DNA from: Cherax quadricarinatus
Lineage: Eukaryota > Arthropoda > Malacostraca > Decapoda > Parastacidae
DNA: 64,000 nucleotides
Reading direction: 5' to 3'
Assembly: GCF_038502225.1 (NCBI RefSeq)
Contig: NC_091374.1
Location: forward strand, 1,741,909-1,805,908
The notes below the pieces were generated by a model. The model was not told the origin of the DNA. It saw only the letters and a program-made list of their open reading frames with translations, and ran no database searches. Of the stretch, positions 3,241 through 62,962 are shown in pieces. Position 1 is the stretch's first letter. Each line of letters opens with the position of its first letter. The position numbers and the translations under genes are program-made.

Positions 3241-3287
3241 GGAACGCTCAGGACTCCTGTAGGTATACACAACAATGAAGTGAAAAT

Positions 3288-7878: not shown

Positions 7879-8099
7879 TCAGCAGACAAACTGGCCAGGT
7901 AAAGCGGACATACCTGACCTGTCTGTCTTCCCCCTCACCCACACCACCACCTGGGCTTCCCTCCTCTCCCCCCTCCCTCCCCCCCTCCCCGCCTGTCTAC
8001 CACAACACTGGCCAGAACAGTTTATGTACCCTGGACGCCCAGCTGACTCCCTCTCCCTCACGATGTACACACTACACAAATAACCCACACAGGAGAGAC

Positions 8100-8165
8100 A
8101 AGCCTATGACAACGTATCGGTCCGTCTTGGAGCGAAACGTTGCCATAAGCATTATGTACACAATG
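8100..8165 (-). repeat. Hammerhead-type element remnant (GGTCC stem family)
   Basis: On the minus strand, AAGACGGACCGATACGTTGT resembles stem II plus GAAACGTTG of the third hammerhead-like family (compare 33055-33090 and 58195). The plus strand also reads GAGCGAAACGTTGCC. Box 1 is absent, so this is a partial foldback remnant. Confidence 0.45.
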
Positions 8166-8174
8166 TTTTCAGGC

Positions 8175-16002: not shown

Positions 16003-16138
16003 GTTAACATCTCACTCTCCAATATTTTAAAGCTGAGTCACCAGTATCAGCAGTTACTTCCGGTGACGTAAGTGGCAACTTAGTGAAATAAGAAACTTTA
16101 AAGATAACTCATCTAGCTAAACTGTGATGTTTCACCAA

Positions 16139-17218: not shown

Positions 17219-17300
17219 GACTGAGACCTGACTAGCTTGGGCCAGTAGATGACTTGGACCTGCCTCGCAGGGGCCAGCTGGCCTGCTGCAGTGCTCCCTC
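17219..17300 (+). repeat. Dispersed repeat tail, CCTGCTGCAGTGCTCC type
   Basis: ACCTGACTAGCTTGGGCCAG, GACTTGGACCTGCCTCGC and GGCCTGCTGCAGTGCTCC recur at 56755-56875 and in part at 42490-42535 and 52745-52790. Family unknown; probably the 3' end of a retroelement. Confidence 0.6.
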
Positions 17301-17508
17301 TTGATGACTGTTGTTACCAGTACCTCGTCGACTCTCACTTTCCGCACAATCTCAACTATGAACTATCCACGAGAGCGTTCCCTCTGCCCTCTCTCCTTCC
17401 TTCATCTTCCGCCCCTTTCGCCTTTCTCTATTCTATCCAGCTTCTCTTTTTACCTTTTCCATTCCCTCTTCCAATCTCTGGTACCGTTATTACAGCTAGC
17501 TTTATTAC

Positions 17509-20500
17509 GACGGCTGCTGTGGTGATGGTGGTAGTGGATACTGTGGTGATGGTGGTAGTGGTTACTGTGGTGATGGTAGTGGTTACTGTGATGATGGTGG
17601 TAGTGTATACTGTGGTGATGGTGGTAGTGGATATTGTGGTGATGGTGGTAGTGGATACTGTGGTGATGGTGGTAGTGGATACTGTGGTGATGGTGGTAGT
17701 GTATACTGTGGTGATGGTGGTAGTGGATACAGTGGTGATGGTGGTAGTGGATACAGTTATGATGGTGGTAGTGGATACTGTGGTGATGGTGGTAGTGGTT
17801 ACTGTGGTGATGGTGGTAGTGGTTACTGTGGTGATGGTGGTAGTGGTTACTGTGGTGATGGTGGTAGTGGTTACTGTGGTGATGGTGGTAGTGGTTACTG
17901 TGGTGATGGTGGTAGTGGTTACTGTGGTGATGGTGGTAGTGGTTACTGTGGTGATGGTGGTAGTGGATACTGTGGTGATGGTGGTAGTGGATACTGTGGT
18001 GATGGTGGTAGTGGATACTGTGGTGATGGTGGTAGTGTATACTGTGGTGATGGTGGTAGTGGATACAGTGGTGATGGTGGTAGTGGATACAGTTATGATG
18101 GTGGTAGTGGATACTGTGGTGATGGTGGTAGTGGTTACTGTGGTGATGGTGGTAGTGGTTACTGTGGTGATGGTGGTAGTGGTTACTGTGGTGATGGTGG
18201 TAGTGGTTACTGTGGTGATGGTGGTAGTGGTTACTGTGGTGATGGTGGTAGTGGTTACTGTGGTGATGGTGGTAGTGGTTACTGTGGTGATGGTGGTAGT
18301 GGATACTGTGGTGATGGTGGTAGTGGATACTGTGGTGATGGTGGTAGTGTATACTGTGGTGATGGTGGTAGTGGATACTGTGGTGATGGTGGTAGTGTAT
18401 ACTGTGGTGATGGTGGTAGTGGATACTGTGGTGATGGTGGTAGTGGTTACTGTGGTGATGGTGGTAGTGGATATTGTGGTGATGGTGGTAGTGGATACTG
18501 TGGTGATGGTGGTAGTGGATACTGTGGTGATGGTGGTAGTGGTTACTGTGGTGATGGTGGTAGTGGATATTGTGGTGATGGTGGTAGTGGATACTGTGGT
18601 GATGGTGGTAGTGGTTACTGTGGTGATGGTGGTAGTGGATATTGTGGTGATGGTGGTAGTGGATACTGTGGTGATGGTGGTAGTGGATACTGTGGTGATG
18701 GTGGTAGTGTATACTGTGGTGATGGTGGTAGTGGTTACTGTGGTGATGGTGGTAGTGGATACTGTGGTGATGGTGGTAGTGTATACTGTGGTGATGGTGG
18801 TAGTGGATACTGTGGTGATGGTGGTAGTGTATACTGTGGTGATGGTGGTAGTATATACTGTGGTGATGGTGGTAGTGTATACTGTGGTGATAGTGGTAGT
18901 GGATACTATGGTGATGGTGGTAGTGCATACTGTGGTGATGGTGGTAGTGTATACTGTGGTGATGGTGGTAGTGGATACTGTGGTGATAGTGGTAGTGGAT
19001 ACTATGGTGATGGTGGTAGTGTATACTGTGGTGATGGTGGTAGTGGATACTGTGATGATGGTGGTAGTGGTTACTGTGGTGATGGTGGTAGTGGATACTG
19101 TGGTGATGGTGGTAGTGGATACTGTGGTGATGGTGGTAGTGGTTACTGTGGTGATGGTGGTAGTGGATACTGTGGTGATGGTGGTAGTGTATACTGTGGT
19201 GATGGTGGTAGTGGATACTGTGGTGATGGTGGTAGTGGTTACTGTGGTGATGGTGGTAGTGGATACTGTGGTGATGGTGGTAGTGGATACTGTGGTGATG
19301 GTGGTAGTGGTTACTGTGGTGATGGTGGTAGTGTATACTGTGGTGATGGTGGTAGTGGATACTGTGGTGATGGTGGTAGTGGATACTGTGGTGATGTTGG
19401 TAGTGGATACTGTGGTGATGGTGGTAGTGGTTACTGTGGTGATGGTGGTAGTGGATACTGTGGTGATGGTGGTAGTGGATACTGTGGTGATGGTGGTAGT
19501 GGTTACTGTGGTGATGGTGGTAGTGGATACTGTGGTGATGGTGGTAGTGGATACTGTGGTGATGGTGGTAGTGGTTACTGTGGTGATGGTGGTAGTGTAT
19601 ACTGTGGTGATGGTGGTAGTGGATACTGTGGTGATGGTGGTAGTGGATACTGTGGTGATGTTGGTAGTGGATACTGTGGTGATGGTGGTAGTGGTTACTG
19701 TGGTGATGGTGGTAGTGGATACTGTGGTGATGTTGGTAGTGGATACTGTGGTGATGGTGGTAGTGGTTACTGTGGTGATGGTGGTAGTATATACTGTGGT
19801 GATGGTGGTAGTGTATACTGTGGTGATGGTGGTAGTGGATACTATGGTGATGGTGGTAGTGTATACTGTGGTGATGGTGGTAGTGTATACTGTGGTGATG
19901 GTGGTAGTGGATACTGTGGTGATGGTGGTAGTGGTTACTGTGGTGATGGTGGTAGTGTATACTGTGGTGATGGTGGTAGTGGATACTGTGGTGATGGTGG
20001 TAGTGTATACTGTGGTGATGGTGGTAGTGGATACTGTGGTGATGGTGGTAGTGGATACAGTGATGATGGTGGTAGTGGATACTGTGTTGATGGTGGTAGT
20101 GGATACAGTGGTGATGGTGGTAGTGGATACTGTGATGATGGTGGTAGTAGATACTGTGGTGATGGTGGTAGTGGATACTGTGGTGATGGTGGTAGTGGAT
20201 ACTGTGATGATGGTGGTAGTGGATACTGTGATGATGGTGGTAGTGGATACTGTGGTGATGGTGGTAGTGGATACTGTGGTGATGATGGTAGTGGATACTG
20301 TGGTGATGGTGGTAGTGGATACTGTGGTGATGGTGGTAGTGGATACAGTGGTGATGGTGGTAGTGGATACTGTGATGATGGTGGTAGTGGATACTGTTGT
20401 GATGGTGGTAGTGGATACAGTGGTGATGGTAGTAGTGGATACTGTGGTGATGGTAGTAGTGGATACTGTGGTGATGGTGGTAGTGGATATAGTGGTGATG

Positions 20501-22170
20501 GTGGTAGTGGATACTTTGGTGATGGTGGTAGTGGATACTGTGGTGATGGTGGTAGTGGATACAGTGGTGATGGTGGTAGTGGATACAGTGATGATGGTGG
20601 TAGTGGATACTGTGATGATGGTGGTAGTGGATACAGTGGTGATGGTGGTAGTGGATACTGTGGTGATGGTGGTAGTGGATACAGTGGTGATGGTGGTAGT
20701 GGATACTGTGGTGATGGTGGTAGTGGATACAGTGGTGATGGTGGTAGTGGATACAGTGATGATGGTGGTAGTGGATACAGTGGTGATGGTGGTAGTGGAT
20801 ACAGTGATGTTGGTGGTAGTGGATACTGTGGTGATGGTGGTAGTGGATACAGTGGTGATGGTGGTAGTGGATACTGTGGTGATGGTGGTAGTGGATACAG
20901 TGATGATGGTGGTAGTGGATACAGTGGTGATGGTGGTAGTGGATACAGTGATGATGGTGGTAGTGGATACTGTGGTGATGGTGGTAGTGGATACAGTGGT
21001 GATGGTGGTAGTGGATACTGTGGTGATGGTGGTAGTGGATACTGTGGTGATGGATACAGTGGTGATGGTGGTAGTGGATACTGTGGTGATGGTGGTAGTG
21101 GATACTGTGGTGATGGTGGTAGTGGATACTGTGATGATGGTGGTAGTGGATACAGTGGTGATGGTGGTAGTGGATACAGTGATGATGGTGGTAGTGGATA
21201 CAGTGGTGATGGTGGTAGTGGATACAGTTATGATGGTGGTAGTGGATACTGTGGTGATGGTGGTAGTGGATACAGTGGTGATGGTGGTAGTGGATACTGT
21301 GGTGATGGTGGTAGTGGATACTGTGGTGATGGTGGTAGTGGATACAGTGGTGATGGTGGTAGTGGATACTGTGGTGATGGTGGTAGTGGATACTGTGGTG
21401 ATGGTGGTAGTGGATACTGTGATGATGGTGGTAGTGGATACTGTGGTGATGGTGGTAGTGGATACTGTGGTGATGGTGGTAGTGGATACTGTGGTGATGG
21501 TGGTAGTGGATACTGTGGTGATGGTGGTAGTGGATACTGTGATGATGGTGGTAGTGGATACTGTGGTGATGGTGGTAGTGGATACTGTGGTGATGGTGGT
21601 AGTGGATACAGTGATGATGGTGGCAGGGGATACAGTGATGATGGTGGTAAGGGATACAGTGATGATGGTGGTAAGGGATACAGTGATGATGGTGGCAGGG
21701 GATACAGTGATGATGGTGGTAGTGGATACAGTGATGATGGTGGCAGGGGATACAGTGATGATGGTACCATGGTAAGGGATACAGTGATGATGGTGGTAAG
21801 GGATACAGTGATGATGGTGGCAGGGGATACAGTGATGATGGTGGTAAGGGATACAGTGGTGATGGTGGTAAGGGATACAGTGATGATGGTGGCAGGGGAT
21901 ACAGTGATGATGGTGGTAGTGGATACAGTGATGATGGTGGCAGGGGATACAGTGATGATGGTACCATGGTAAGGGATACAGTGATGATGGTGGTAAGGGA
22001 TACAGTGATGATGGTGGCAGGGGATACAGTGATGATGGTGGTAAGGGATACAGTGGTGATGGTGGTAGGGAATACAGCGGTGATGGTGGTAGAGAAGACA
22101 GTGTGATGGTGGTAGCGGATACAGTGGTGATGGTGGTAGAGAAGACAGTGGTGATGGTAGCCGTGGTGGT
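17509..22170. repeat. 24-bp minisatellite, 4.7 kb, about 194 copies
   Basis: The unit contains GATGGTGGTAGTGGATAC and TGTGGT. Variants include GGTTAC, GTATAC, GATACAGT and, from about 21600, GGCAGGGGATAC and GGTAAGGGATAC. As 24 is a multiple of 3, each frame repeats an 8-residue pattern, giving open frames of 1508 codons (plus) and about 1600 (minus). Stretches are duplicated at 336 bases (17701 and 18037), and a segment with ACCATGGTAAGG recurs at about 21768 and 21961. Confidence 0.97.
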
Positions 22171-22199
22171 TAATGGTAAGATCAATGGTGGTGGTTTCC

Positions 22200-22735
22200 A
22201 TGGTAAGTAAAGAGTGTTGAGTCAGGAAGGGAGGATCCCAGGCACTGCTAGGTAAACACTGACTCGCCTTTCCTTTAAACCTTATAATTGGATTTTGTAG
22301 GGGAAGCTGAGGCTTGAGAAGAAGAATGGTCTTGCCTGGACCGGTGAAGCCTGGTGGACCGTCACTGGACCGGTAAAGTCTGGTGGACCGTAACCAGTCA
22401 TTGGACCAGTGGACCATGAGCAGCCAGTAGACGGGTGAATTGCTATTAATACTGTAATATTCATGGGGTAGTGCCAGTTCCTTGGATTAAAAGCCCTTCA
22501 GTAGCATCAGCAGTTGACGCAACAAGAAAAGCGACCACTGACCAACACTCAACGGACGCCCAAGGGAAGGAACGAAGACGAACAAGGCAAATCTATGATA
22601 AATGACACTAAGAGGAGACAGGAGAATAGAACTGCAGTGCAGGAGAAATGTAAAGGTGGGTAGGGCGACAAGGGGAACACCAGGGCAACAGGAGGAGTAG
22701 CACCATCGTGGGTAGGGCAAGAGAGCGTGGAGATA
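22200..22735. other. No gene seen; short GGACCG-rich tandem at about 22335-22410
   Basis: CTGGACCGGT, AAGCCTGGTGGACCGT and similar blocks repeat two or three times. The rest shows no recognised feature. Confidence 0.5.
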
Positions 22736-24814: not shown

Positions 24815-24862
24815 GAACCGACAAGTTGATAAACTAGACACATGTGCAACACTTGGGTATCT

Positions 24863-24908
24863 TGAATGAGGAAACGTTTCGCCACACAGTGGCTTCATCA
24901 GTCCATAC
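24863..24908 (-). ncRNA. Hammerhead ribozyme core (GCCAC stem II type)
   Basis: On the minus strand: CTGATGA (24895-24901), stem II GCCAC-TGT-GTGGC, GAAA (24877-24880), then CGTT. Proximal stem I is GGA with TCC (24902-24904 and 24870-24872). The distal part of stem I is disrupted compared with 56554-56598. The core is intact. Confidence 0.7.
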
Positions 24909-24924
24909 AGATCTTTCTCAAGTC

Positions 24925-31989: not shown

Positions 31990-32330
31990 TGTCCTTACGA
32001 TTTTCTGAGTCCAAGTAAAATACGCAAGTTACTAACAACAAATGACTACGTTGTTAGTACCAACGATAACTACGTTAGTAGCAGCCAATGTGTAAGTACA
32101 AGGCACAAGTCATCCCACTAAGAACTGGAATGACCAATTATAACTGCAAAAACAATATCACGTCTGTGTTGCACACGTTCTCGCAACACCAGTGATGTTC
32201 GTGTACATTTCGACGTTCCTGGTCGTACCAATCTGCTACCTTCTCACGTTTTAACCAACAGTGCTCTTCTCACCAACTCCTAGACTGAGGGACTGATTAT
32301 CCAATCTTCTGTATATAGTTCCACTGTCTT
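31990..32330. other. No gene seen; left part of a decayed foldback element
   Basis: GACTGAGGGACTGATTATCC (about 32284-32303) and CAACAGTGCTCTTCTCACC (about 32259) match the interior of the hammerhead-bearing foldback at 52965-53265. The rest is unassigned. Confidence 0.5.
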
Positions 32331-32343
32331 CCATCCATCTCCT

Positions 32344-32400
32344 TGAATTTGTAATGATGAGGCCACTGGAGGGCGAAACGTGAGTAACGTATACCATTCA
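32344..32400 (+). ncRNA. Complete type I hammerhead ribozyme fold, C3 mutated
   Basis: All three helices can be drawn in 57 bases. Stem I: TGAAT (32344-32348) with ATTCA (32396-32400), and GTA (32351-32353) with TAC (32392-32394), separated by a TT/C internal loop. Box 1 is ATGATGA (32354-32360). Stem II is GCC...GGC. GAAA is at 32375-32378. Stem III is ACGT-GAGTA-ACGT, a closed hairpin. The predicted cleavage site is after GTA at 32391. Box 1 has A where the hammerhead has C3, which should greatly reduce cleavage, so this is probably an inactive relic. It is the only copy here with a looped stem III. Confidence 0.75.
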
Positions 32401-51957: not shown

Positions 51958-52760
51958 GGTTACCTGGAGGTTATTCCGGGGATCAACGCCCCCGCGGCCC
52001 GGTCTATGACTAGGCCTCTCGATGGATCAGGGCCTGATCAACTAGGCTGTTACTGCTGGCCGCACGCAGTGTCCGACGTACGAGCCACAGCCCGGCTGAT
52101 CCGGCACTGACTTTAGGTATCTGTCCAGCTCTCTCTTGAAGGCAGCCAGGGGTTTATTGGCAATTCCCCTAATGCTTGATGGGAGGCTGTTGAACAGTTT
52201 TGGGCCCCGAACACTTATGGTGTTTTCCCTTAGTGTACCAATGGCGCCCCTATTTTTTATTGGCGGCATTTTGCATCGCCTGCCCAGTCTTTTACTTTCG
52301 TAGGGAGTGATTTCTGTGTGCAGATTTGGGACCATTCCTTCCAAGATTTTCCAAGTGTAGATTATGATATATCTCTCCCTCCTGCGTTCCAACGAGTACA
52401 AGTCAAGTGCTTCCAAGCGTTCCCAGTAGTTAAGGTGCTTGACAGAACTTATACGTGCAGTAAAGGATCTCTGTACACTCTCTAGATCTGCGATTTCACC
52501 TGCTTTGAATGGAGATGTTAATGTACAGCAGTATTCCAGCCTAGAGAGAACAAGTGATTTGAAAAGGATCATCATTGGCTTGGCATCTCTCGTTTTGAAA
52601 GTTCTCATTATCCATCCTATCATTTTCTTTGCACGTGCGATCGTGGCACTGTTACTAGCCCCTTGTTCCCGGCATATTAGTCGCCTCTTACAACACGCAT
52701 GGCTTACGGAGGAAGAATTCTGTTCCACTTCCCCAAGAATGAACATTGCATGCAGTAGGC
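51958..52760 (-). pseudogene. LINE family A, longest copy of RT C-terminus plus tail
   Basis: On the minus strand, open from about 52746 to 52042. It has an upstream extension (ASNSATIARAKKMIGWIM) before MRTFKTRDAKP. Then follow LSRLEYCC, PFKAGEIADLESVQRSF, YWERLEALDLYSLERRR, YIIIYTWKILEGMVPN, GRRCKMPPIK and FNSLPSSIRGI, ending in the 3' tail at about 51958. It is nearly identical to the copy at 29240-29890, so both are young. It is 5'-truncated before the catalytic motif. Confidence 0.88.
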
Positions 52761-53002
52761 CTACTGGCCCATGCTAGGTAGGCCTAACACTCACTCATAT
52801 ACCCAGTATGATATACCGATTCCCGAACTTATATAAAGACTAAGGCAGACTTTGGAAGGAAGCTGTTCAAGGTTAGAGACATTTAAACGTGGTAATTACA
52901 GTACCTTTTAACTTTAGTCAAACTGACTAATTCTTTAACTGGTAAGTCAACGACTTCCTAGAAGAAGAATCAGACACATGTGTAACATCTGGGTATCTTT
53001 AT

Positions 53003-53041
53003 TTGTAGACGTTTCGCCCTCCAGTGGCTTTATCAAAACAA
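53003..53041 (-). ncRNA. Hammerhead core, U3/A8 subfamily, cleavage triplet GTC
   Basis: On the minus strand: TTGATAA (53030-53036), AGCC...GGGC stem II, GAAA (53012-53015), then CGTC with cleavage predicted at 53008, followed by TACAAATAAAG. Stem I has one mismatch compared with the right arm. Confidence 0.55.
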
Positions 53042-53187
53042 TGACATAATGTGAAGAATTATGTACAGAAGATGAGGTAATCAATCCCTCAACCTTGAAG
53101 CTGGTAAACCGACGGTGCTCTTCACCAACTTCAAGGTTGAGGGACTGATTACCTCAGCTTTTGTATATAATTCTTCACGTTATATCC

Positions 53188-53226
53188 TTGTATTGATAAA
53201 GCCACTGGATGGCGAAACGTTTACAA
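53188..53226 (+). ncRNA. Hammerhead core, U3/A8 subfamily
   Basis: Stem I is TTGTA (53188-53192) with TACAA (53222-53226), 5 perfect pairs. Box 1 is TTGATAA (53193-53199). Stem II is GCCA-CTGGA-TGGC. GAAA is at 53214-53217, then CGTT with cleavage predicted after 53221. Compared with CTGATGA, both C3 and G8 are replaced, by U and A, which could keep the tertiary base pair. Confidence 0.62.
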
Positions 53227-53272
53227 ATAAAGACACCCAGATGTTACACATGTGTCTAAATTAACTTACAAA

Positions 53273-53470
53273 TTAGAAATAATCCATGAACCTCGTCTCC
53301 AGAGGTTTACCAGTTTGTCCAGTGTATGAAAGAGTGCAGAGAGCGCATGGGACCTTGTAAACACCAACACTAACAAACGGTGTGTTCTTAATTAACCTGT
53401 ATTTCATGTGGCAGAACAAACCAGGGGAAATAACCTGCGTGATTTGATTCTGGAGCACAAGGAAACTCTA
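53273..53470 (-). pseudogene. Penelope-like retroelement remnant, GIY-YIG endonuclease start
   Basis: The minus-strand frame of 61 codons contains CHMKYRLIKNTPFVSVGVYKV-type sequence in which GVYKVPC, CTLSYTGQTGK and LETRF match the N-terminal half of a GIY-YIG nuclease domain: GVY for GIY, YTG for YIG, then the helix with the conserved Arg. Cysteine pairs around PCALC are usual in Penelope-like elements, where this domain follows the reverse transcriptase. The frame stops soon after LETRF, where the hammerhead-bearing repeat begins (about 53265), so the domain is truncated. No reverse transcriptase is seen upstream. Confidence 0.7.
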
Positions 53471-53679
53471 GTTAATAATCTGGAGATTACGTAACAACCA
53501 TTCACATCAACAACTGGTTATTTTTCATGACGAGGCGTTTCGCCAACCATCGATTTGCTTTTCTTATTTAAAAAGGGAGAATATATACTAGAGACAATGG
53601 AAGTAGAGAAGTAATTTTGAGGTGCTCAGCCTTGATAGGTGTTCAGTTCCTCTGTCCTGAAAGCAGGTGCACAACAAGC

Positions 53680-53735
53680 TTTTATTGTGACAACGTTTCG
53701 CTCCACTTATGCAGTGAAACGTCATCACAACAAAT
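53680..53735 (-). repeat. Hammerhead-like terminal repeat fragment (GCTCC type)
   Basis: On the minus strand: CACTGCATAAGTGGAGC, GAAACGTTGTCACAATAAAAG. The GAAACGTTG and AATAAA blocks are kept and box 1 is lost. A second GTTTCACTGC half faces it. Confidence 0.45.
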
Positions 53736-53801
53736 GCTTGTTCTGCCCTACAACTGTCCATTTTTTTCATTATTGTCGACACTATCTCTCAGTATGCAAC
53801 T

Positions 53802-54048
53802 AAATCCCTGCCAACACAACACTGAGTACACACAACTTACTCGACTTCCAGCATCCACTACACACCCAGTCAAGTAAATCCCTGCCAACACAACACTGAG
53901 TACACACAACTTACTCGACTTCCAGCATCCACTACACACCCAGTCAAGTAAATCCCTGCCAACACAACACTGAGTACACACAACTTACTCGACTTCCAGC
54001 ATCCACTACACACCCAGTCAAGTAAATCCCTGCCAACACAACACTAAG
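53802..54048. repeat. 74-bp minisatellite, about 3.3 copies
   Basis: The unit contains AAATCCCTGCCAACACAACA, CTGAGTACACACAACTTAC and CGACTTCCAGCATCCACTAC, starting at 53802, 53876 and 53950. A diverged further copy lies at 54253-54350, beyond the inserted hammerhead element. Confidence 0.93.
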
Positions 54049-54252
54049 TGATAAATGGTTTAAAACCGACAAATTGAAGATTGAGACACTTATGCAACAT
54101 ATGGGAATCTTTATTGAAGAAACGTTTCGCCACACAGTGGCTTCATCAGTCCAATACAGATCAGAAGGGTGTAAGAACAGGAGGAGTTTGTGGTAATCAG
54201 TCCCTCAGCCTGGAGTCGATGTGTTCAGTCCATCAATCTTCTAGAGAGTACT
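54049..54252 (-). mobile_element. Half of a hammerhead-bearing element, inside the 74-bp array
   Basis: The edge reads AAAACCGACAAATTGAAGAT and TGAGACACTTATGCAAC, then the minus-strand hammerhead, GGTAATCAGTCCCTCAGCC and CAGTCCATCAATCTTCTAG. It lies between units of the 74-bp repeat, as if inserted there. Confidence 0.75.
54112..54156 (-). ncRNA. Hammerhead ribozyme, complete stems I and II
   Basis: On the minus strand: stem I TATT-GGA (54150-54156) with TCT-TC-AATA (54112-54120), one G-U pair. Box 1 CTGATGA (54143-54149), stem II GCCAC-TGT-GTGGC, GAAA (54125-54128), CGTT, cleavage predicted between 54121 and 54120. Confidence 0.75.
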
Positions 54253-54359
54253 TTCGACTTCCAGCATCCACTACACAACCTGTTCAGTAAATCCCTGCCA
54301 ACACAACCCTGAGTACACAACTCACTTGAGCTCTAACATCCACTACACACAACCTGTCC

Positions 54360-55170
54360 TTCCACTTCTAAAATCGATAGTGACAAACTGTCTCCTTGAT
54401 GTAGGGAGAGCAGTCCCCTCCCTGCCTGACTTTCACTCAGACAAGCTCGTATGCACTGGAGGCAGGACCTGACTAACTTTTTAATGACATCAGCGCCCTC
54501 ACAACCTCTTCCTGTCCTCTCTCCGCCTCCGCCAAACTTCTAACACCAATCAATTTCTGGCAGCGTCATCCCACTTCGACAACAATAGATTATTGAGAGA
54601 TCTAAACACAACAGCGTATGAGAATAGAGTCAGGGACTTTTTTTTCTGTTAATTTAGTTAAAATTAGTATATTTTTCAATGAACAAAGTTTTCTTACCTG
54701 GAGGTTACCTTTCTTGGGTGTTAGTATTGTTCTTATACAAAGACAGAAATTGTAGCAATGAACAGAGTTCTACAGCGAGCCTACACTGAACAACTAATTT
54801 CTGCAAGTGCATGATGAGTCAGGCTGTGACGCCTATATTGGCCTGTGGGCTGTTAGAACTAATAGCGTAGTTGACTAAGCGGTCAACAGGGGAAGCCTGA
54901 CTTTATGGTGGGCTGCTAGGGAAGAAACATTGAAACGGGTCACAGGTACACGTACGTCGTGGAAACACTGACACAACACTAGCTACATTAACCTTAGCAC
55001 CATCAAAAGTGCTTGAGAAACTACACTCAGAGGGCAGCTGGCTGGTTGATAAACTGGATACTAAGCCACACTGGCGTCATACAACAAGTATACACCGGTG
55101 ATCTGTATCTCCTAAGAATAAGTTAATCCCAATTTTAGGGATTAACGTATTCTTGACTGGTAGTTTACAT
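54360..55170. other. No gene or recognised repeat seen
   Basis: Intron sequence. A short LINE-tail-like CTTACCTGGAGGTTACC lies at about 54695, and GTTAATCCCAATTTTAGGG at about 55121 folds on the next bases. Confidence 0.5.
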
Positions 55171-55230
55171 TTCATTATTATTATTATAATCAAAAAGAAG
55201 CGCTAAGCCACAAGGACTATACAGCACAGT

Positions 55231-55985
55231 TTACATTTGAAATGCGCCCTTAATCATCCTCGTGCAATCGATGATGTTTACAATAATCTACACTTAAACC
55301 AAGGCAACGATGGAGCCATTAAGGTGCCAAGATAGCCATCTAACAAAGCCAAACAGTCACGGTGCCATCAAGTCTAGAGGAAGTGAAGACTCACACCAGA
55401 AATATGACTACACAAGTGTCGTGACGCCAACACCTCTAGCCCTAAATGTAATCAGATCCCCCCACGTGGTATCAAACACCAGCCAAATACGTAAGCCTGA
55501 TCTTGCCGAAGGTATCAGGAGACTCGAGAGAGCATAAACAGCACGAAGCTGGTGCAGCTGCTGATAGAAAATGTGACTGAACAAAAGAAATTAGTCAGCA
55601 GATTAGATGAGCGAGTGTTCTATGGAGCCTTATCTACTGATTTATCAGCCAAAGGAACGATTACACCACGGCGATACATCTAACACAGCCCAGGTAGTTG
55701 TAGCCTCTACATGCTGTATAACTGCTTAAGATAAACTCCCGGAGATAAAGACATACCCACCTCTTATAAATCACCCTAAAAGACATCCCTCACACACCGA
55801 CCCCAACACCAGTAAACCGTTGCTGCTGCCATAGCCCACCATAGGCCATCATCTACCCCATTTTAATGTCTTTAGCTACACTGTCTTGCCGCACCAGCGC
55901 CATGGGGTCAACACCACTACGAGGTCATCTCATGACAAAGACCTTGACGAATAAACTAACATCTCTCACAACATAGGCTCCATAT
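55231..55985. other. No gene assigned; one short open frame
   Basis: A 75-codon frame at 55310-55537 (plus) has no recognisable motif and may be a transposon relic. Nothing else recognised. Confidence 0.4.
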
Positions 55986-55989
55986 TTTG

Positions 55990-56200
55990 ATATGGCTGTC
56001 TCCAAGGAACTCGACTCTTCTCCAGGCTGAGGGACTGACTACCTCAAATACTTTTTCTCCAAGGCTGATGGACTGATTACATAATCTTTATCTCATTTCT
56101 ACTGTTTCTTTTGTATATGACTGAAGAAGCCTACTGTGTAGGCGAAACGTTTTCATTAATAAAGATACCCAACTGTTGCACATGTAATGATTTCGGTGAT
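55990..56200 (+). mobile_element. Hammerhead-bearing element, right half
   Basis: CTCCAGGCTGAGGGACTGAC, TTTTTCTCCAAGGCTGATG and TTTGTATATGA lead to the hammerhead, then TAATAAAGATACCC and ACTGTTGCACATG. The first block matches half of the 52-bp minisatellite unit. Confidence 0.8.
56114..56162 (+). ncRNA. Hammerhead ribozyme with 6-bp stem II
   Basis: Box 1 CTGAAGA (56121-56127), stem II GCCTAC-TGT-GTAGGC (56129-56143), GAAA (56144-56147), CGTT. Stem I uses ATGA before box 1 with TCAT after the site, with one extra U. Confidence 0.7.
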
Positions 56201-56240
56201 GAATGGTTTGAAAAACCGACAAGTTGAAGATTGAGACACT

Positions 56241-56440
56241 GGCTTATATACTGTAGTGAGGTGACGTGAAGCAGGCGGAGGCGGGGTCATAGTGGTACCA
56301 TCCACTAGTCGAAGTAGGTCTTCGTTCAAAGGTTGAACAAGTGTTCAACCTTTGGACGAAGACCTACTTCGACTAGTGGATGGTACCACTATGACCCCGC
56401 CTCCGCCTGCTTCACGTCACCTCACTACAGTATATAAGCC
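56241..56440. repeat. Near-perfect 200-bp palindrome
   Basis: Arms 56241-56338 and 56343-56440 (98 bases each) are inverted copies with one mismatch (TTCGTTC against GGACGAA) around AAGT. Each outer end is GGCTTATATACTGTAG, so a TATATAA motif points outward at both ends. Confidence 0.95.
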
Positions 56441-56553
56441 ACGTCTACGGCCCTATGCCGTACATTCTACAAGATTGATGGACTGAACACATCGACTCCA
56501 GGCTGAGGGACTGATTACCTCATACTTCTCCTCTCCTTACGCCTTCCTCTTTG

Positions 56554-56598
56554 TATTGGACTGATGAAGCCACTGTGTGGCGAAACGTTTCCTGAATA
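56554..56598 (+). ncRNA. Hammerhead ribozyme, best-preserved copy
   Basis: Stem I: TATT (56554-56557) with AATA (56595-56598) and GGA (56558-56560) with TCC (56590-56592), with bulge TG. Box 1 CTGATGA (56561-56567). Stem II GCCAC-TGT-GTGGC (56569-56581). GAAA (56582-56585), then ACGT and U, with cleavage predicted after 56589. Stem III would be ACGT pairing with ACGT of a second molecule. AATA of stem I overlaps the AATAAA signal. Confidence 0.8.
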
Positions 56599-56640
56599 AA
56601 GATTCCTATATGCTGCATAAGTGTCTCAATCTTCAATGAT

Positions 56641-56880
56641 TTCGGTGTGCAGGTTTGGCACCGATTCTGTCGGTATCATTCAGGTGTAGTTTATGATGTA
56701 TCTTTCTTACCCATGTTCTAACGGACTTTAGGGTATTCCCATAATTTAGGATGTGGATGTGACCTGGACCTGACTAGGTTGGGTCAGTGGCTTGAGCCAG
56801 TAGGTGGCTCGGACCTGCCTCACATGGGCGAGTAGGCCTCCTGCAGTGTTCCTTCTTTCTTATGTTCTTATGTTTTTATG
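56641..56880 (+). repeat. Dispersed repeat tail, CTTATGTTCTTATG type
   Basis: GATTTCGGTGTGCAGGTTTG, CTGACTAGGTTGGGTCAG, GCTCGGACCTGCCTCAC, CTCCTGCAGTGTTCC and CTTATGTTCTTATG, related to 17219-17300. It also includes LINE A-like pieces (GTTTATGATGTATCTTTCTT). Confidence 0.6.
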
Positions 56881-56884
56881 ATTG

Positions 56885-57045
56885 AACACATCGATTCCAT
56901 GCTGAGGGACTGATTACTTACAACTCCTCTTCTTCCGCCGTCCTCTGTACTGGACTGAAGAATCCACTGGCTGGCGAAACGTTTCCTCAGTAAAGGTTTC
57001 AAAATGTTGCCCAAGTGTCTAATTCTTCAAGATTGACCGAGTGTA
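56885..57045 (+). mobile_element. Hammerhead-bearing element, right half
   Basis: GAACACATCGATTCCATGC and GAGGGACTGATTAC precede the hammerhead, then AAATGTTGCCCAAGTGTC and TAATTCTTCAAG as edge. Confidence 0.78.
56948..56992 (+). ncRNA. Hammerhead ribozyme with compensated stem I
   Basis: Stem I: TACT (56948-56951) with AGTA (56989-56992) and GGA with TCC, bulge TC. Box 1 CTGAAGA (56955-56961), stem II CCA-CTGGC-TGG with the outermost pair lost, GAAA (56976-56979), CGTT. Compared with 56554-56598, one U-A pair of stem I has become C-G. Confidence 0.75.
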
Positions 57046-57084
57046 TACAAATTAATGAAGATTCTTTCTATGTTTTCCAGTTCT

Positions 57085-57745
57085 GTAACCTCAGGATGGA
57101 TAATGAGAACCTTCAAAACTAGGGATGCCAAGCCCATGATGACACTCTTCAGGTCACTTGTTCTATCTAGGCTGGAATATTGCTGCACACTAACAGCACC
57201 TTTCAAGGCAGGTGAAATTGCTGACCTAGAAAATGTACAGAGAACCTTCACGGCGCGCATAACGGAGATAAAACACCTCAATTACTGGGAGCGCTTGAGG
57301 TTCCTGAACCTGTATTCCCTGGAACGCAGGCGGGAGAGATACATGATTATATACACCTGGAAAATCCTAGAGGGACTAGTACCGAACTTGCACACGAAAA
57401 TCACTCACTACGAAAGCAAAAGACTTGGCAGACGATGCAACATCCCCCCCAATGAAAAGCAGGGGTGTCACTAGCACGTTAAGAGACCATACAATAAGTG
57501 TCAGGGGCCCGAGACTGTTCAACTGCCTCCCAGCATACATAAGGGGGATTACCAACAGACCCCTGGCTGTCTTCAAGCTGGCACTGGACAAGCACCTAAA
57601 GTCGGTTCCTGACCAGCCGGGCTGTGGCTCGTACGTTGGTTTGCGTGCAGCCAGCAGTAACAGCCTGGTTGATCAGGCTCTGATTCACCAGGAGGCCTGG
57701 TCACAGACCGGGCCGCGGGGGCGTTGACCCCCGGAACTCTCTCCA
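57085..57745 (+). pseudogene. LINE family A, RT C-terminus, frameshifted
   Basis: From about 57091: MRTFKTRDAKP, LSRLEYCC, PFKAGEIADLENVQRTF, YWERLRFLNLYSLERRR and TWKILEGLVPN in one frame, which closes at 57474. The C-terminus (DHTISVRGPRLFN, RGITNRPLAVFK) continues in another frame to 57727. The shift lies at or just after the C run 57444-57450 and is a one-base change in a homopolymer, or a sequencing error. The tail GGGGGCGTTGACCCCCGG and CTCTCCAGGTAAACTC follows. It is more diverged than the copies at 29240 and 51958. Confidence 0.87.
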
Positions 57746-57864
57746 GGTAAACTCACCTGCCTTAAAGGAGGCCATTAGTATACAGAAATATTCCAGCCTA
57801 GAGAGAACGAGCGACCTGAAGACCCATCATCATTAGATCAATGGCTACCACATTCCCGTCTATC

Positions 57865-58000
57865 TGGACACTATCTGGAGGATATTCTGGGGATCAACGC
57901 CCCCGCGGCCCGCTCCACGACCAGGCCTCCCGGTGGATCAGGGGCTGATCAACGAGGCTGTTTCTGCTGGCCGCATGTAGTCCAACGTACGTATGTCTGT
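57865..58000 (-). mobile_element. LINE A 3' tail fragment
   Basis: CTATCTGGAGGATATTCTGG, GGATCAACGCCCCCGCGG, CCACGACCAGGCCTCCCGG and CTGCTGGCCGCATGTAG are the inverted LINE A terminus. Confidence 0.78.
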
Positions 58001-58111
58001 ATTAGTAGACACACCGTCCACAGCACAGCTAGCCAGTGGTCAGTTCTTACAGCTCTCCAGTCACAGAACCAACCTTACCACTGGCAAAAACCCGAGTTAG
58101 GTGATATTTTT

Positions 58112-58146
58112 CTTGTACTACTACTACTACTACCACCACCACCACC
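58112..58146. repeat. (CTA)n/(CCA)n trinucleotide run
   Basis: CTACTACTAC passes into CCACCACCACC. Confidence 0.9.
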
Positions 58147-58194
58147 TCTTCCTGCCTATATATAGCCGTCCTGCTCCACTTCTGGTTAGTGTGA

Positions 58195-58445
58195 CTTTGT
58201 AAATGGTCCAAGTCGGAACGTCGTCGTAAGCTTCTCTCTCTTATGTGCGGGTTATTTGTGTATATTTTCTCGCCTTAACGAATGAAATAACAAAAGTCTC
58301 ATGGCTCAGGCTGACAGATTTCATCGGGTTTCTGAAAGCCCATCCTGTGTGAAGGAATATAAGAGGAAAACTATACTGCGTTTCTTAAATTGATAAAACC
58401 ACTGGTTAGTGGAACGTCTTCGTAACAAAAACATCTAAGTGTTGT
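58195..58445 (+). repeat. Two decayed hammerhead-type fragments
   Basis: TCCAAGTCGGAACGTCGTCG (58200) is the 3' half of the GGTC-stem family. At 58390-58430 TTGATAAAACCACTGG, TTAGTGG and AACGTC keep a U3/A8-type box 1 and stem II but lose a base of GAAA. Confidence 0.5.
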
Positions 58446-58504
58446 ATGCCTCTTTTGCTGATCTAATTTGTCAGTCTTCTGTACCGATGATATATCATAA
58501 CTAA

Positions 58505-58690
58505 CCTTATTATTATTATTATAATAATCAAGGGGGAAGCGCTAAACCCGGAGGATTATACAGCGCCTGGGGGGGGGGATGTGGAAGGCATTCAGGCTTA
58601 ATTCGGGGAACTAGAGCACAGATCCAATTCCCTAAATCAAGAGCCCCTCACCAACATCAAGGAACCTTCCTTGAGGGGTACTAACCTTAT
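58505..58690. repeat. Dispersed TTATTATAATCAAGGGGG repeat
   Basis: Second copy of the repeat at 41905-42062, with the same order of blocks from ATCAAGGGGGAAGCGC to CAAGGAACCTTCCTTGAG. Confidence 0.8.
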
Positions 58691-58948
58691 AAAATGTCAT
58701 ATAAATCACGTTTTCCACACAATAGATGGGGGAGAAGGAAGGGAGAGAAAAGGAGGGGAGTTATGGAGTGAGATTTTAAAAGGGTGGGGAGGATATAGGA
58801 GGAGAAAGGGGTAGACAGTAATCCCTAACAATAAAAGTCTCCCAGACCCTCACAGAGGCGACCTCCACATATCACTGTTTAATCAATGGCCTCAAATACG
58901 AACTCAAGACTCAAGATTCGGAAACACACACGCACTCACACCGTCAGA

Positions 58949-59025
58949 CCAGGAGCTATGAATCGACCCCTGCAACCACAATTAGGTGAGTACTCTCTCT
59001 CTCTCCCTCACACACACACACACAG
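58949..59025 (+). repeat. LINE B 3' tail with TC and CA runs
   Basis: GACCAGGAGCTATGAATCG, ACCCCTGCAACCACAATTAG and GTGAGTAC, then TC and CA dinucleotides. Confidence 0.75.
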
Positions 59026-59289
59026 CCTGACCCAGGGCCAGGATGTGGGAGTAAAAAATTTGGAAAAAAAATCAAAGATCCGAGAAAGAATGAGGTAGCG
59101 CCAATTCCTAGGAATGAAGGGACCCTCACTCACACCTTCCGGCTAAGTCCATCCATCATCTGGTGCGTTGTCTTGTCTCCACAATACACAAATTCAACAA
59201 ACACGGCAGCATATTGTAAATGTTATCAATACCAACAAGCTGATGAGTAAGACACACTGTCTTACTCGTCCACTAACATGGTGGTGGCA

Positions 59290-59385
59290 GCAAGTAACCA
59301 GGTCACCCCTGATCCACCGGGAGGCCTGATCAAGGACTGGGCCTCGGGGGCGTTGACCCCCCTAATACCCTCCAGGTAGACGTTG
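59290..59385 (+). mobile_element. LINE A 3' tail fragment
   Basis: CCTGATCCACCGGGAGGCC, GGGCCTCGGGGGCGTTGACC and CCTCCAGGTAGACG. Confidence 0.75.
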
Positions 59386-59990
59386 ATGGCGAGAGGATAT
59401 ATTTCTCCACTTCAATATTCTATGTTACTGTAATGCACTCAGAATAAACTCTCACCCTCCTCAGTCTCTCTTCGTAAACCCAGTCTTTTGATTTCCTGCA
59501 CATCCTTTCTTCTCTAGAATTCCACTTATGCCAGATACTTGAAACTCAACACTTGGTGCTGGCTGGTTCCAAGTGGCACTCCATTCCTGCTCCAAGTGGC
59601 ACTCCATATTATCTTTCTTTTGTGTCTGACTCATTTAAGGTGAAGAGCAAGAGCAGTGTTCTCATGAAGACGGAACTAAATGCTGACGGTACAGGCAGTA
59701 AACAAAACAGACATGAGAATAAGAGAAAGACAGGTGGAAGTGAGAGACAAGAGGGCGGAGAGGATGTGGGAGAGACGGAGAAGAAAGCGTGGAGAGGGTG
59801 TGGGAGGAATGGAGGAGAATAAAGAAGGTAGACAAGAGGGTGTGGGAGAGATAAAGAATAAAGACAATAGACAAGAAGATGGACAGGGTGTTGAAGAAAT
59901 ATCTAACAATGTAGTTGGCCAACTGGCCTATGCTAGACAGCTGCTTCTCACACCCAAACCATAACAAGAGTAATTTGCAACATGTTACTG
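59386..59990. other. No gene seen; purine-rich stretch
   Basis: AG-rich at about 59700-59890 with imperfect GAGAAGA and GTGGGAG repeats. The open frames there reflect composition. Confidence 0.5.
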
Positions 59991-59994
59991 GCCC

Positions 59995-60125
59995 ATGCTA
60001 GTCGTCGTAGCTCAGTAACAGTATGGTGGGCACCAACAGCTTTGTTAATCAGGCCAGCAATTAGGAAGCCTAATCTGGGACCGGGTAGTGGGGGGCGTTG
60101 ACCCCCATCTACAGGTAGATGATTA
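59995..60125 (+). mobile_element. LINE A 3' tail fragment, diverged
   Basis: GTCGTCGTAGCTCAGTAACA, TTTGTTAATCAGGCC, CTAATCTGGGACCGGG and GGGCGTTGACCCCCATC. Confidence 0.6.
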
Positions 60126-60135
60126 AGACATACCA

Positions 60136-60262
60136 AATCATACTACGGGCGGGGTTAGAACTCGCAATCAGAGTCTCAAAACTCCAGACCGACGTGTTAG
60201 CCACTGGGCCAGCTAGTGGTATGGTTTGTTTGCAATCGTGTCATTACGATTTCGTGCGTCAT
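60136..60262 (-). repeat. tRNA-like repeat, second copy
   Basis: CGGGCGGGGTTAGAACTCGC, AAACTCCAGACCGACGTG and TTAGCCACTGGGCCAGCTAG match the left arm and centre of 31860-31978. GTGGTATGGTTTGTTTGC and CGTGTCATTACGATTT match what follows it. The right arm is largely deleted, so the palindrome is lost. Confidence 0.75.
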
Positions 60263-60266
60263 GATT

Positions 60267-60735
60267 AAGATAAATGTGTAATAGCTAGGCATGTTTATTG
60301 TTGAAACGTTTCGCCCACACAGTAGGCTTCTTCAGTCAAATACAAAGGCAGCAGGTGTAGTAGTGAAATGAAGATGCTGTAATCAGTCCACCAGCCTCGG
60401 AGAAAAAGTATTTGAGGTAGTCAGTCCCTCAGTCTGATTTTGCTCTTCTTCCATTGCTTTCAAAATCACGTCGTGAGAGGCACGAGCGCTCTTCTAAACC
60501 CATCCTCCTTAACTTACGTAAATCTGATTCTCAACACGAGGCTGGAAGCCTTGTTCAAGATTCTTACACATCAGTGCTCTTTCAGCTGTATGGAGTTGAG
60601 CTCCATGGAGCTCAACTCATTTCACTATTACACCTACTGCCTCTGTATCTAACTGAAGCCTACTGAGTAGGCGAAACGTTTCAACAATAAGAATACCTAA
60701 CTGTTGTACATTTGCTTTAATCAACTTGTCGGCAT
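60267..60735. mobile_element. Foldback element with hammerhead cores in both arms
   Basis: About 90-base terminal arms are inverted copies: ATGTTTATTGTTGAAACG, GTAGGCTTCTTCAGTC and AGCAGGTGTAGTAGTGAAAT against their complements at 60620-60700. The middle includes AATCAGTCCACCAGCC and a perfect 26-bp palindrome at 60593-60618. The right core has lost bases from box 1 (ACTGAAGCCTAC). Confidence 0.82.
60296..60342 (-). ncRNA. Hammerhead ribozyme with second compensated stem I
   Basis: On the minus strand: stem I TATT-TGA (60336-60342) with TCA-AC-AATA (60296-60304). Box 1 CTGAAGA (60329-60335), stem II GCCTAC-TGT-GTGGGC with one G-U pair, GAAA (60309-60312), CGTT, cleavage predicted between 60305 and 60304. 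The G-C pair of GGA/TCC copies is U-A here. Confidence 0.76.
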
Positions 60736-60739
60736 TTCA

Positions 60740-61224
60740 TACCATTATCAACATCTCTCTTCTCGATATGTCTCCTGATCTCTTTTTCTCACTCAGTTGT
60801 GACTTGATAATGATTTAGAATGGACTGAAACGCCCTCTAAGACTTCTTAAGTGGGTTACTTGTCAATTATGACTTGTATTTATATTCTTCCTGCCACTTA
60901 CTCCAGGAGGACAACAACAGGAGGTGAACACCAAGAGTCACTTAGAGCTTTGGTTGTCCCCCAGACACTGACAAACATAAACGAGGTCACCTAACACCAC
61001 CTCACATACGAAACATCCAGGACCAAGACCTTGCGACACTGCCTGAAACACAAGGACCAAAACATTTCAACACTGCCTAAAACAAGGACCAAGGACCACT
61101 ACTACTGCCTGTAACAAGGACCAGGACATTCCAGAACTTATGCCAACCTCTCCACTCGACCTTGGCAATGTCCTTTAAATATAACTTTGGAAGCAGACCA
61201 AGAAAGTAACAGCCGCGACCAAAA
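60740..61224. other. No gene seen; short AAGGACCA repeats
   Basis: AACAAGGACCA and CACTGCCT blocks recur loosely at 61020-61130. Nothing else recognised. Confidence 0.5.
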
Positions 61225-61287
61225 CACACACACACACGCACACACGCACACACATACACACACACACACATACACACACACACACAC

Positions 61288-61385
<98 letters not shown>

Positions 61386-61438
61386 GGCCAGGGGCTGTGA
61401 ATCGACCCCTGAAACCACAACTGGGTGAGTACACACAC
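61225..61438 (+). repeat. (CA)n microsatellite with LINE B tail
   Basis: A CA run of about 157 bases is followed by GGGCCAGGGGCTGTGAATCG, ACCCCTGAAACCACAACTG and GGTGAGTACACAC. Confidence 0.88.
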
Positions 61439-61570
61439 ATCACCACTACCACCACTCATATAACAGCACCATCACCACCCACTCATTTAAGAGCACCACC
61501 ACCACAACCACCACCACCACCACCCACTCATTTAACAGCAGCACCAACACCACCACAACTACCACCCAGT
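61439..61570. repeat. (CAC)n-rich tract
   Basis: CAC triplets with CACTCATTTAACAGCA interruptions recurring two to three times. Confidence 0.85.
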
Positions 61571-61679
61571 GAATTGGAGTATCACTAGTTAACCAAACAC
61601 ATCTTATCAACTTACACAACCTACCTTCCACTTGCCAGTGGCTGGAGGATGAACCTTAGTTCACTCTTTGCGTTAAATA

Positions 61680-62962
61680 ACTCACACAGTATCAGCGTTG
61701 ATATCAATCTTCCAGTTAACTCACACAGTATCAGCGCCGATACCAATCTTCCAATTAATTCACACAGTATCAGCGCCGATACCAATCTTCCAGTTAGTTC
61801 ACACAGTACCAGCGTTGATACCAATCTTCCAGTTAACTCACACAGTATCAGCATTGATACCAATCTTCTTGTTAACTCACACAGTATCAATGCTGATACC
61901 AATCTTCTTGTTAACTCACACAGTATCAACGCTGATAACAATCTTCTTGTTAACTCACACAGTATCAACGCTGATATCAATCTTCTTAACTCACACAGTA
62001 TCAACGCTGATACCAATCTTCTTAACTCACACAGTATCAACGCTGATACCAATCTTCCTGTTAACTCACACAGTATCAGCATTGATGCCAATCTTCTTAA
62101 CTCACACAGTATCAACGCTGATACCAATCTTCCTGTTAACTCACACAGTATCAGCGCCGATACCAATCTTCCAGTTAATTCACACAGTACCAGCGTTGAT
62201 ACCAATCTTCCAGTTAACTCACACAGTATCAGCGTTGATACCAATCTTCTTAACTCACAGTATCAACGCTGATACCAATCTTCCTGTTAACTCACACAGT
62301 ATCAGCGTTGATACCAATCTTCTTAACTCACAGTATCAACGCTGATACCAATCTTCCTGTTAACTCACACAGTATCAGCGCCGATACCAATCTTCCAGTT
62401 AATTCACACAGTACCAGCGTTGATACCAATCTTCCAGTTAACTCACACAGTATCAGCGTTGATACCAATCTTCTTGTTAACTCACAGTATCAACGCTGAT
62501 ACCAATCTTCTTGTTAACTCACACAGTATCAACGCTCATACCAATCTCCTTGTTAACTCACACAGTATCAACGCTGATATCAATCTTCTTAACTCACACA
62601 GTATCAGCGTTGATACCAGTCTTCTTAACTCACACAGTATCAACGCTGATACCAATCTTCCTGTTAACTCACCCAGTATCAGCGTTGATACCAATCTTAA
62701 CTCACACAGTATCAACGCTGATACCAATCTTCCTGTTAACTCACAGTATCAGCATTGATACCAATCTTAACTCACACAGTATCAACGCTGATACCAATCT
62801 TCCTGTTAACTCACACAGTATCAGCGTTGATACCAATCTTCTTCTTAACTCACACAGTATCAACGCTGATACCAATCTTCCTGTTAACTCACACAGTATC
62901 AGCATTGATACCAATCTTCCTGTTAACTCACACAGTATCAGCGTTGATACCAATCTTCCAGT
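61680..62962. repeat. 39-bp minisatellite with a two-faced hairpin, about 33 copies
   Basis: The unit contains TTAACTCACACA, a hairpin GTATCA-NNNN-TGATAC, and CAATCTTCC. The loop is either GCGT or ACGC, which are reverse complements, and both forms alternate through the array. Units lacking CTGTTA (33 bp) are common. Open frames on both strands are artefacts. Confidence 0.95.

Follow-up and report, generated by a model that had tools for sequence, protein, structure and literature searches.

We consider it about 80% probable that the repeat at positions 56554 to 56598 of the window (the whole stretch of 64,000 nucleotides analysed here) is the right half of a non-coding Penelope-type mini-element, which contains a predicted RNA-cutting, likely dimeric hammerhead-type motif and was probably inserted by the protein of full-length elements. 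The family is best read as a set of non-autonomous Penelope mini-elements with a stem-III-less variant of the hammerhead, for which cleavage, dimer action and mobilisation in trans are predicted.

Members of the Repeat Family in the Window

A preliminary description of the window had listed eleven loci as members of a single dispersed family with the order CTGANGA, short stem, GAAA, CGTT and AATAAAG. Nine of them (24863, 32344, 53003, 53188, 54112, 56114, 56554, 56948, and 60296) were recovered as one dispersed repeat family by sequence, by BLAST, and by a covariance model built from six window copies, the flagged copy included (hereafter R1). The other two loci lack the AATAAA context and were rejected: 24925 scored 14.1 bits (E = 0.95) with R1, and 33050 was unlisted at E ≤ 1. 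One further member, at 60640–60695 (+), had been overlooked. The family copies in the window are as follows.

56548–56604, plus strand: flagged hammerhead-type motif with extended stem I (R1 85.3 bits; minimum free energy −16.1 kcal/mol, z −3.78)
56942–56998, plus strand: family copy (R1 72.4 bits)
56108–56167, plus strand: family copy in which stem II has 6 bp (R1 74.0 bits; sequence)
54106–54162, minus strand: family copy (R1 82.3 bits)
60290–60348, minus strand: family copy with stem I UUGA/UCAA (R1 77.6 bits)
60640–60695, plus strand: core-deleted copy, head-to-head with 60290–60348 (R1 46.6 bits; inverted arms 60262–60330 and 60655–60723)
24858–24913, minus strand: family copy (R1 73.2 bits)
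53185–53235, plus strand: E-type copy with a U3-A8 core and stem I UUGUA/UACAA (R1 35.1 bits; hand register)
52994–53050, minus strand: E-type copy, head-to-head with 53185–53235 (R1 23.8 bits; inverted arms 52972–53108 and 53121–53257, 91%)
32253–32393, plus strand: decayed E-type relative, truncated before AATAAA (BLAST at 32253–32381; R1 15.7 bits at 32346–32393)

The box 1 sequence CTGANGA, which had been ascribed to all the loci, is exact in six of the nine members (24901−, 54149−, 56121+, 56561+, 56955+, and 60335−), and both 53003 and 53188 have TTGATAA at this position. AATAAA is likewise missing from some members: 24863 has ATTCAAG and 56948 AGTAAAG at this place, and the decayed copy at 32344 stops short of any AATAAA. 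The decayed copy has an R1 E value of 0.36, and it matched the unit at 53213 with 71% identity over 129 nt (BLAST, E = 6e-15). A 74-bp tandem repeat lies on both sides (53797–54049 and 54254–54350) of the copy at 54065–54251, so this copy seems to have landed in a satellite.

The Head-to-Head Insertion Around the Flagged Motif

The surroundings of the flagged motif were resolved into the following features.

56199–56634, both strands: B-type mini-element, a head-to-head insertion with the minus half on the left and the plus half on the right, containing the flagged motif at 56554–56598
56186–56198, unstranded: left target-site duplication AATGATTTCGGTG, identical to 56635–56647 (compared by script)
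56635–56647, unstranded: right target-site duplication AATGATTTCGGTG, the same 13 bp as 56186–56198
56431–56438, plus strand: TATA-box-like TATATAAG in the 5' part of the unit (sequence)
56568, plus strand: inserted A (A10 position) that separates core A9 from stem II (sequence; 15 of 15 aligned copies)
56589/56590, plus strand: predicted cleavage site GUU/U, with the cut between these two bases (hammerhead numbering)
56595–56600, plus strand: AATAAA overlapping the 3' strand of the extended stem I (sequence)

The region 56342–56636 (+) is 97.6% identical to the B-type unit uB, and 56343–56240 (−) is 97.1% identical to it; the 100-nt arms of the insertion are 99% complementary. The left half is on the strand opposite to that of the right half, which brings the two 5' ends together at the centre of the insertion. 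The palindrome at 56240–56441 was considered as a separate element and rejected, as it is this head-to-head junction. The left half has lost its ribozyme part. By sequence, the insertion has a long end on the left and a short one on the right, the latter also according to the analysis of tail positions. The insertion appears to lie in, or to adjoin, the tail of the copy at 56108–56167. In the predicted fold of the flagged copy, AUAAAGA pairs with UCUUUGU.

A Hammerhead-Type Core With One Inserted A

We compared 15 hand-picked copies from the window and from fetched loci in an alignment made by hand; the counts were taken from this register because MAFFT misplaced a gap in A5. Nine of the rows represent six types (A to F) of non-coding unit; the other six belong to elements with a GIY-YIG domain, of which one was covered whole and five as 401-nt stretches. 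Among the copies omitted were 56121 (an extra T before stem I), 60640 (a core deletion), 32344 (decayed), more copies of the same types, and weaker R1 matches.

The motif reads CTGANGA-A-GCC..GGC-GAAACGTT, in which one A separates core A9 from stem II. The earlier statement that box 1, stem II and GAAA are exactly the hammerhead core is therefore off by one inserted A, which is present in all 15 aligned copies. A descriptor of the strictly canonical core found 0 sites in the window (0.02 per shuffled window), and a descriptor allowing one extra nucleotide after A9 found 5 sites, compared with 0.00 per shuffled window (100 dinucleotide shuffles). No Rfam hammerhead matched the whole window at the gathering score, or positions 52000–62000 and the 101 bases around the motif at E ≤ 10; the preliminary description had named such an outcome of an Infernal search as formally refuting its proposal. 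An Rfam family search of the genome also gave no match, but it gave none in 14 control genomes either. The extra A after A9, together with U3-A8 in some subfamilies, is the likely reason why the Rfam models miss the motif. A pattern scan of viral contigs gave 0 matches.

In all 15 copies, positions 4, 5, 6, 9, the extra A, 12, 13, 14, 15.1, 15.2, 16.2, and 16.1 are invariant, and core letters 4–6, 9, and 12–14 occur together with a Watson–Crick 3-8 pair. This pair is C-G in seven copies and U-A in eight, with no mixed case, and box 1 is correspondingly strict CUGANGA in 7/15 and UUGANAA in 8/15. Position N7 is U in six copies, A in eight, and G in one. Position 17 is U in 13, A in one, and C in one (a decayed copy), and is never G. 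A GUH site is present in this register, and self-cleavage is predicted after it. In a wider local count, 77 matches comprised 61 C-G (not individually inspected), 14 U-A, no C-A, no U-G, and two others, namely one decayed copy and one chance match within the full-length element described below. The 75 paired observations are not independent, because many copies were fetched via the exact C3-G8 core and the copies are related, and the 3-8 swap may represent only one or two events.

The proposal that the flanks pair as stem I is supported: pairing is kept by different letters across the 15 copies. Pair 2.1-1.1 is A-U in eight, C-G in six, and mismatched in one; pair 2.2-1.2 is G-C in seven, A-U in five, U-A in two, and mismatched in one; and pair 2.3-1.3 is G-C in 12 and G-U, U-A, and C-G in one each. 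Not every pair is kept, however: 2.4-1.4 is formed in 10/15, and the last pair of stem II in 12/15. Stem II has five pairs and an optional sixth (C-G in six, U-A in one, U-G in one). The double use of AATA, in stem I and in the polyadenylation signal, was likewise borne out, as AATAAA overlaps the 3' strand of stem I. Covariation was seen between subfamilies in this local 15-copy sample, and it was suggestive only on the six window copies, in which the covariation score of 0.117 was equalled in 21 of 500 shuffles and the number of pairs changed on both sides in 239 of 500. The folding z-scores of single copies were mixed (−3.78, +0.90, −3.81, −0.63, −2.14, and −1.23). Judged from the aligned copies, the subfamilies differ in the ways that a hammerhead allows, with covarying stems, a free N7, a position 17 that is never G, and a 3-8 pair that is either C-G or U-A.

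With an extra A and without stem III, the motif is expected to be less active, and it might be a dead or never-catalytic hairpin that is kept for binding of the Penelope protein beside the start sites of reverse transcription. We regard this as unlikely. It would account for the extra A, the lack of stem III and of an Rfam match, and the near-fixed distance from the motif to the 3' end, and ribozyme mutants of the green anole Penelope element still insert in vitro (PMC11167929). However, the pattern between subfamilies obeys catalytic rather than hairpin rules: the unpaired core letters do not vary, N7 varies freely, G never occupies position 17, and 3-8 is swapped as a pair. Moreover, the available part of one report describes U3-A8 hammerheads in nature and an active swap in vitro (PMC3088659), and that of another describes an active viroid hammerhead in which A9 is followed by one additional A (PMC3705267).

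Stem III and the Dimer Question

As had been proposed, stem III consists only of the self-complementary ACGT, and a type I fold with a minimal stem III is supported. Of the three stems around the core, I and II covary and III is a loopless ACGU. Having no loop, this stem cannot close inside one motif, and since it is no more than this self-complementary sequence, cleavage would likely take place as a dimer. Folding gave a less clear picture. For types A and B, the monomer of lowest energy has ACGUU paired with part of the core, at an advantage of 0.8 kcal/mol over the open core; across seven folded copies, the open-core monomer was either itself the most stable fold or no more than 0.8 kcal/mol above it. 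A forced double hammerhead showed no advantage over two monomers, but that output did not retain the ACGU stem, so the comparison weighs neither for nor against a dimer. According to the accessible text of a review, Penelope elements have hammerheads that lack stem III and may work as dimers (PMC7761336).

Genome-Wide Abundance, Arrangement, and Insertion Ends

In the 3.95-Gb genome, the exact 31-nt core of one subfamily, with three letters left free, occurred 50,617 times (25,447 + 25,170), and the reversed control 0 + 0 times. Among the first 100 places listed, neighbours within 1 kb were head-to-head in 27 cases, tail-to-tail in none, and in the same direction in 11, so that all 27 opposite-strand neighbours were head-to-head. 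This is the inverted 5' repeat expected of Penelope insertions, and it was also seen at 1–326 of the full-length element described below. The units are ~380–435 bp long and contain a TATA-like box, the ribozyme motif, and AATAAA; the tandem periods are mostly 378 and ~433 bp.

Copies of types A and B end mainly at tail positions ~44–49 and 73–79, giving two preferred 3' ends ~30 nt apart; the outlying ends belong to copies that run into the next unit or are mosaic or decayed. Of 15 head-to-head insertions examined, eight have a duplication of 9–14 bp no more than 4 nt from both ends, and all eight have one short and one long end. The remaining seven have no clean duplication, and two of them are within satellite DNA; a short and a long end were clear in two of the seven, doubtful in one, and not seen in four. 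Overall, one short and one long end were found in 10/15 insertions, plus one doubtful case. Target-site duplications in the range of ~8–15 bp expected for Penelope elements were thus found in 8/15 insertions and in the flagged one (13 bp), and a tail of ~30 nt on one end, comparable to the optional ~31-bp tail of Penelope elements, was also found.

The L005 mini-units contain no long ORF, and a Pfam search of ten ORFs of the window found neither a reverse transcriptase (RT) nor a GIY-YIG domain; the mini-units therefore count as non-autonomous. In one head-to-head array (L028; C1 583045–587396), A- and B-type units are mixed and joined near the tail, which suggests template jumping. At L049 750–1486, two adjoining C-type units are identical over 287 nt. 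These differ from the array units of L005 by 3–7%, and the L005 units differ from one another by 2–5%, with an 11-nt gap included. The identity at L049 fits copying from one circular or tandem RNA, two sources that it does not separate. At L005 1383–5041, an LTR-type insertion with near-identical ~285-nt repeats splits the array of C-type units, and its open frame is integrase-like by eye.

A Full-Length Penelope-Like Element With the Motif in Both Terminal Repeats

A full-length partner (L051) has terminal repeats at 321–655 and 2910–3244 that are 98.8% identical over 335 nt, preceded by an inverted 5' piece (1–326). Its ORF has 793 codons from stop to stop (758 from the first Met) and holds both an RT domain (RVT_1, 2e-10, 41 bits) and a GIY-YIG domain (6e-8, 33.2 bits). 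Both terminal repeats carry the motif (24.5 and 31.1 bits); its core is of the U3-A8 kind and its stem I is UGAC/GUCA, and it is accompanied by AATAAA and a tail hairpin. These repeats and the unit arrays correspond to the tandem or partial tandem pseudo-LTRs of Penelope elements. The 5' repeat contains the last 45 nt of the ORF; the template therefore held more than one unit, as a tandem transcript or a circle. Among the best 120 of 702 matches to its protein, the named relatives include three decapods and a mantis shrimp, which points to a malacostracan crustacean as the likely host.

Mini-unit C is ~70% identical to this element across the motif, the tail, and the start of the ORF, which is what derivation from a related element by internal deletion would produce. 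The full-length element is not necessarily the direct driver of the mini-elements, since it has U3-A8 and C3-G8 prevails among the mini-elements seen. A GIY-YIG search, in which 150 of 14,992 candidates were scored, found many of these 150 matches in head-to-head pairs. In 401-nt stretches 3' of other GIY-YIG matches, the motif was present in the sense direction in 8/10 (10 chosen of the 150 listed). Of the other two stretches, one has an oppositely oriented B-type unit and the other (L055) begins at the Penelope tail, just past the expected motif, and counts neither way. One GIY-YIG match (G000, C11:40506706–40506963) lies in an open frame that, at 1945 codons, greatly exceeds the other frames listed.

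The preliminary description had tentatively assigned the family to Penelope-like elements and retrozymes. The first assignment is supported by the motif in both terminal repeats of the full-length element; the retrozyme link is weaker. That the family is an animal non-LTR retrozyme, or a SINE copied by a LINE, rather than a Penelope mini-element seems improbable to us. Short non-coding tandem units with a type I hammerhead do resemble animal retrozymes as the accessible part of their description presents them (PMC7229834), but the head-to-head order, the two preferred ends ~30 nt apart, the 9–14-bp duplications, and the ~70% identity to Penelope terminal repeats, which extends over the motif, the tail, and the start of the ORF, all argue against such an origin. 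Retrozymes also have classical hammerheads, and stem-III-less ones are reported for Penelope elements in the available text of the review (PMC7761336). The motif is not the classical type I hammerhead of a retrozyme, as its core has one A too many and its stem III is reduced to ACGU.

It is very improbable that the hairpin and AATAAA form a host signal for 3'-end processing that resembles a hammerhead by accident: AATAAA is fixed in position in most copies seen and a GT-rich stretch lies downstream, but the sequence is dispersed as a transposed unit with target duplications, the motif also occurs in the 5' terminal repeat of the full-length element, and its core is invariant. Chance resemblance, which is how we read the noise-level scores at 24925 and 33050, is hardly credible for a motif with 50,617 exact cores against 0 reversed ones and 0.00 descriptor matches per shuffled window.

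Proposed Mechanism

Under the preferred reading, in which the repeats are Penelope mini-elements, transcription would start at the TATA-like box, and read-through beyond AATAAA into further units would yield an RNA holding more than one unit. This transcript would be cut at each motif, at GUU/U, leaving a 5'-hydroxyl and a 2',3'-cyclic phosphate, the ends produced by hammerhead cleavage. The Penelope protein would then bind near the tail hairpin and cut both strands of the target DNA; reverse transcription would begin at two sites, ~45–50 and 75–80 nt past the cut, one per DNA strand, and the two cDNAs would join head-to-head in the middle of the insertion. That this protein mobilises the mini-elements is suggested by the type of their ends and the homology to terminal repeats. 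Cutting of both strands and priming at two internal sites have been observed in vitro for the anole element, whose ribozyme was dispensable for insertion and cut only when protein was added (PMC11167929).

A more tentative extension, which we consider possible but doubtful when all its parts are taken jointly, is that the ribozyme and the poly(A) signal act together as a switch. In the compared subfamilies, the 3' strand of stem I and AAUAAA overlap; the folded ribozyme might thus hide or cut off the signal and force read-through into the next unit. Both start sites are located past the expected poly(A) site, so that only read-through RNA might have them, and a protein dimer might use the two sites of a single RNA, each for a different DNA strand. 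This would give insertions with one short and one long end. The extra A and U3-A8 might keep the ribozyme slow until the protein binds.

Relation to Known Systems

Minimal stem-III-less hammerheads of Penelope-like elements were reportedly described by Cervera and De la Pena in 2014 and by Lunse, Weinberg and Breaker in 2017. Apparent differences in the present motif are an extra A after A9 (15/15), U3-A8 subfamilies, and AATAAA over stem I. The type I topology with a reduced stem III, the location in terminal repeats, the dispersed non-coding copies, and the proposed dimer action are all shared, as far as the available text of the review goes, and that text calls the role of the Penelope ribozyme unknown (PMC7761336).

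The PAc Penelope element of the green anole is alike in its RT and GIY-YIG protein, its hammerhead of stems I and II, and two adjacent RT start sites with an optional tail between them; its RNA is cut at +26 and reverse transcription starts at 111–118, i.e., ~85–92 nt past the cut (PMC11167929). In contrast, most units seen here are non-coding and the ends lie ~45–50 and 75–80 nt past the predicted cut. For the Penelope families of Adineta vaga, the accessible part of the report describes a head-to-head inverted terminal repeat, an optional 31-bp tail on one end, 8–10-bp duplications, a TATA box in the repeat, and repeats that move cargo in trans, all of which we count as likenesses; copy number is low there, whereas tens of thousands of exact cores occur here (PMC3846280). 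The plus-strand hammerhead of chrysanthemum chlorotic mottle viroid shares the extra A between A9 and stem II and, according to the available text, is active with a moderate loss of rate in trans, although it belongs to a viroid and is not linked to Penelope elements (PMC3705267). Animal non-LTR retrozymes share short tandem non-coding units, type I hammerheads and, in some, dimer action, but their hammerheads are classical, and Penelope-type ends are not described in the accessible portion of that source (PMC7229834).

Penelope-linked minimal hammerheads, tails, and head-to-head insertions are thus already known; the hammerhead variant and the scale are new here. A limited search of open-licence literature (titles and the starts of abstracts) did not find this crustacean family, an extra core A in Penelope hammerheads, or an overlap with a poly(A) signal among the matches listed. 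A survey of decapod repeats reports Penelope elements, with no mention of ribozymes in the part available (PMC10454600). The genome offers a natural experiment: exact cores number in the tens of thousands, stems and cores show compensatory changes across several subfamilies, and there are clean insertion ends. If the core is active, the natural set of hammerheads would gain a lineage whose core has an inserted A and a swapped 3-8 pair, and which the Rfam models missed here. The rule of one short and one long end makes the two-strand priming model directly testable.

Other Repeats in the Window

At 53677–53736 (−) in the window, and near 8396 (−) of L002, there is another hairpin that ends in GCGAAACGTTGTCACAATAAA (or TGCGAAACGTTGCCACAATAAA) and lacks a hammerhead box 1; this is a different repeat with a similar 3' end. 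A tandem array of 52-bp units occupies 4331–6135, and its unit is mostly 82–86% identical to positions 80–128 of mini-unit C, so the 5' part of the element seems to have given rise to this satellite. At 8072–16037 and 17249–22486, several frames are open simultaneously across thousands of bases, up to 2643 codons, and these are probably tandem repeats rather than genes.
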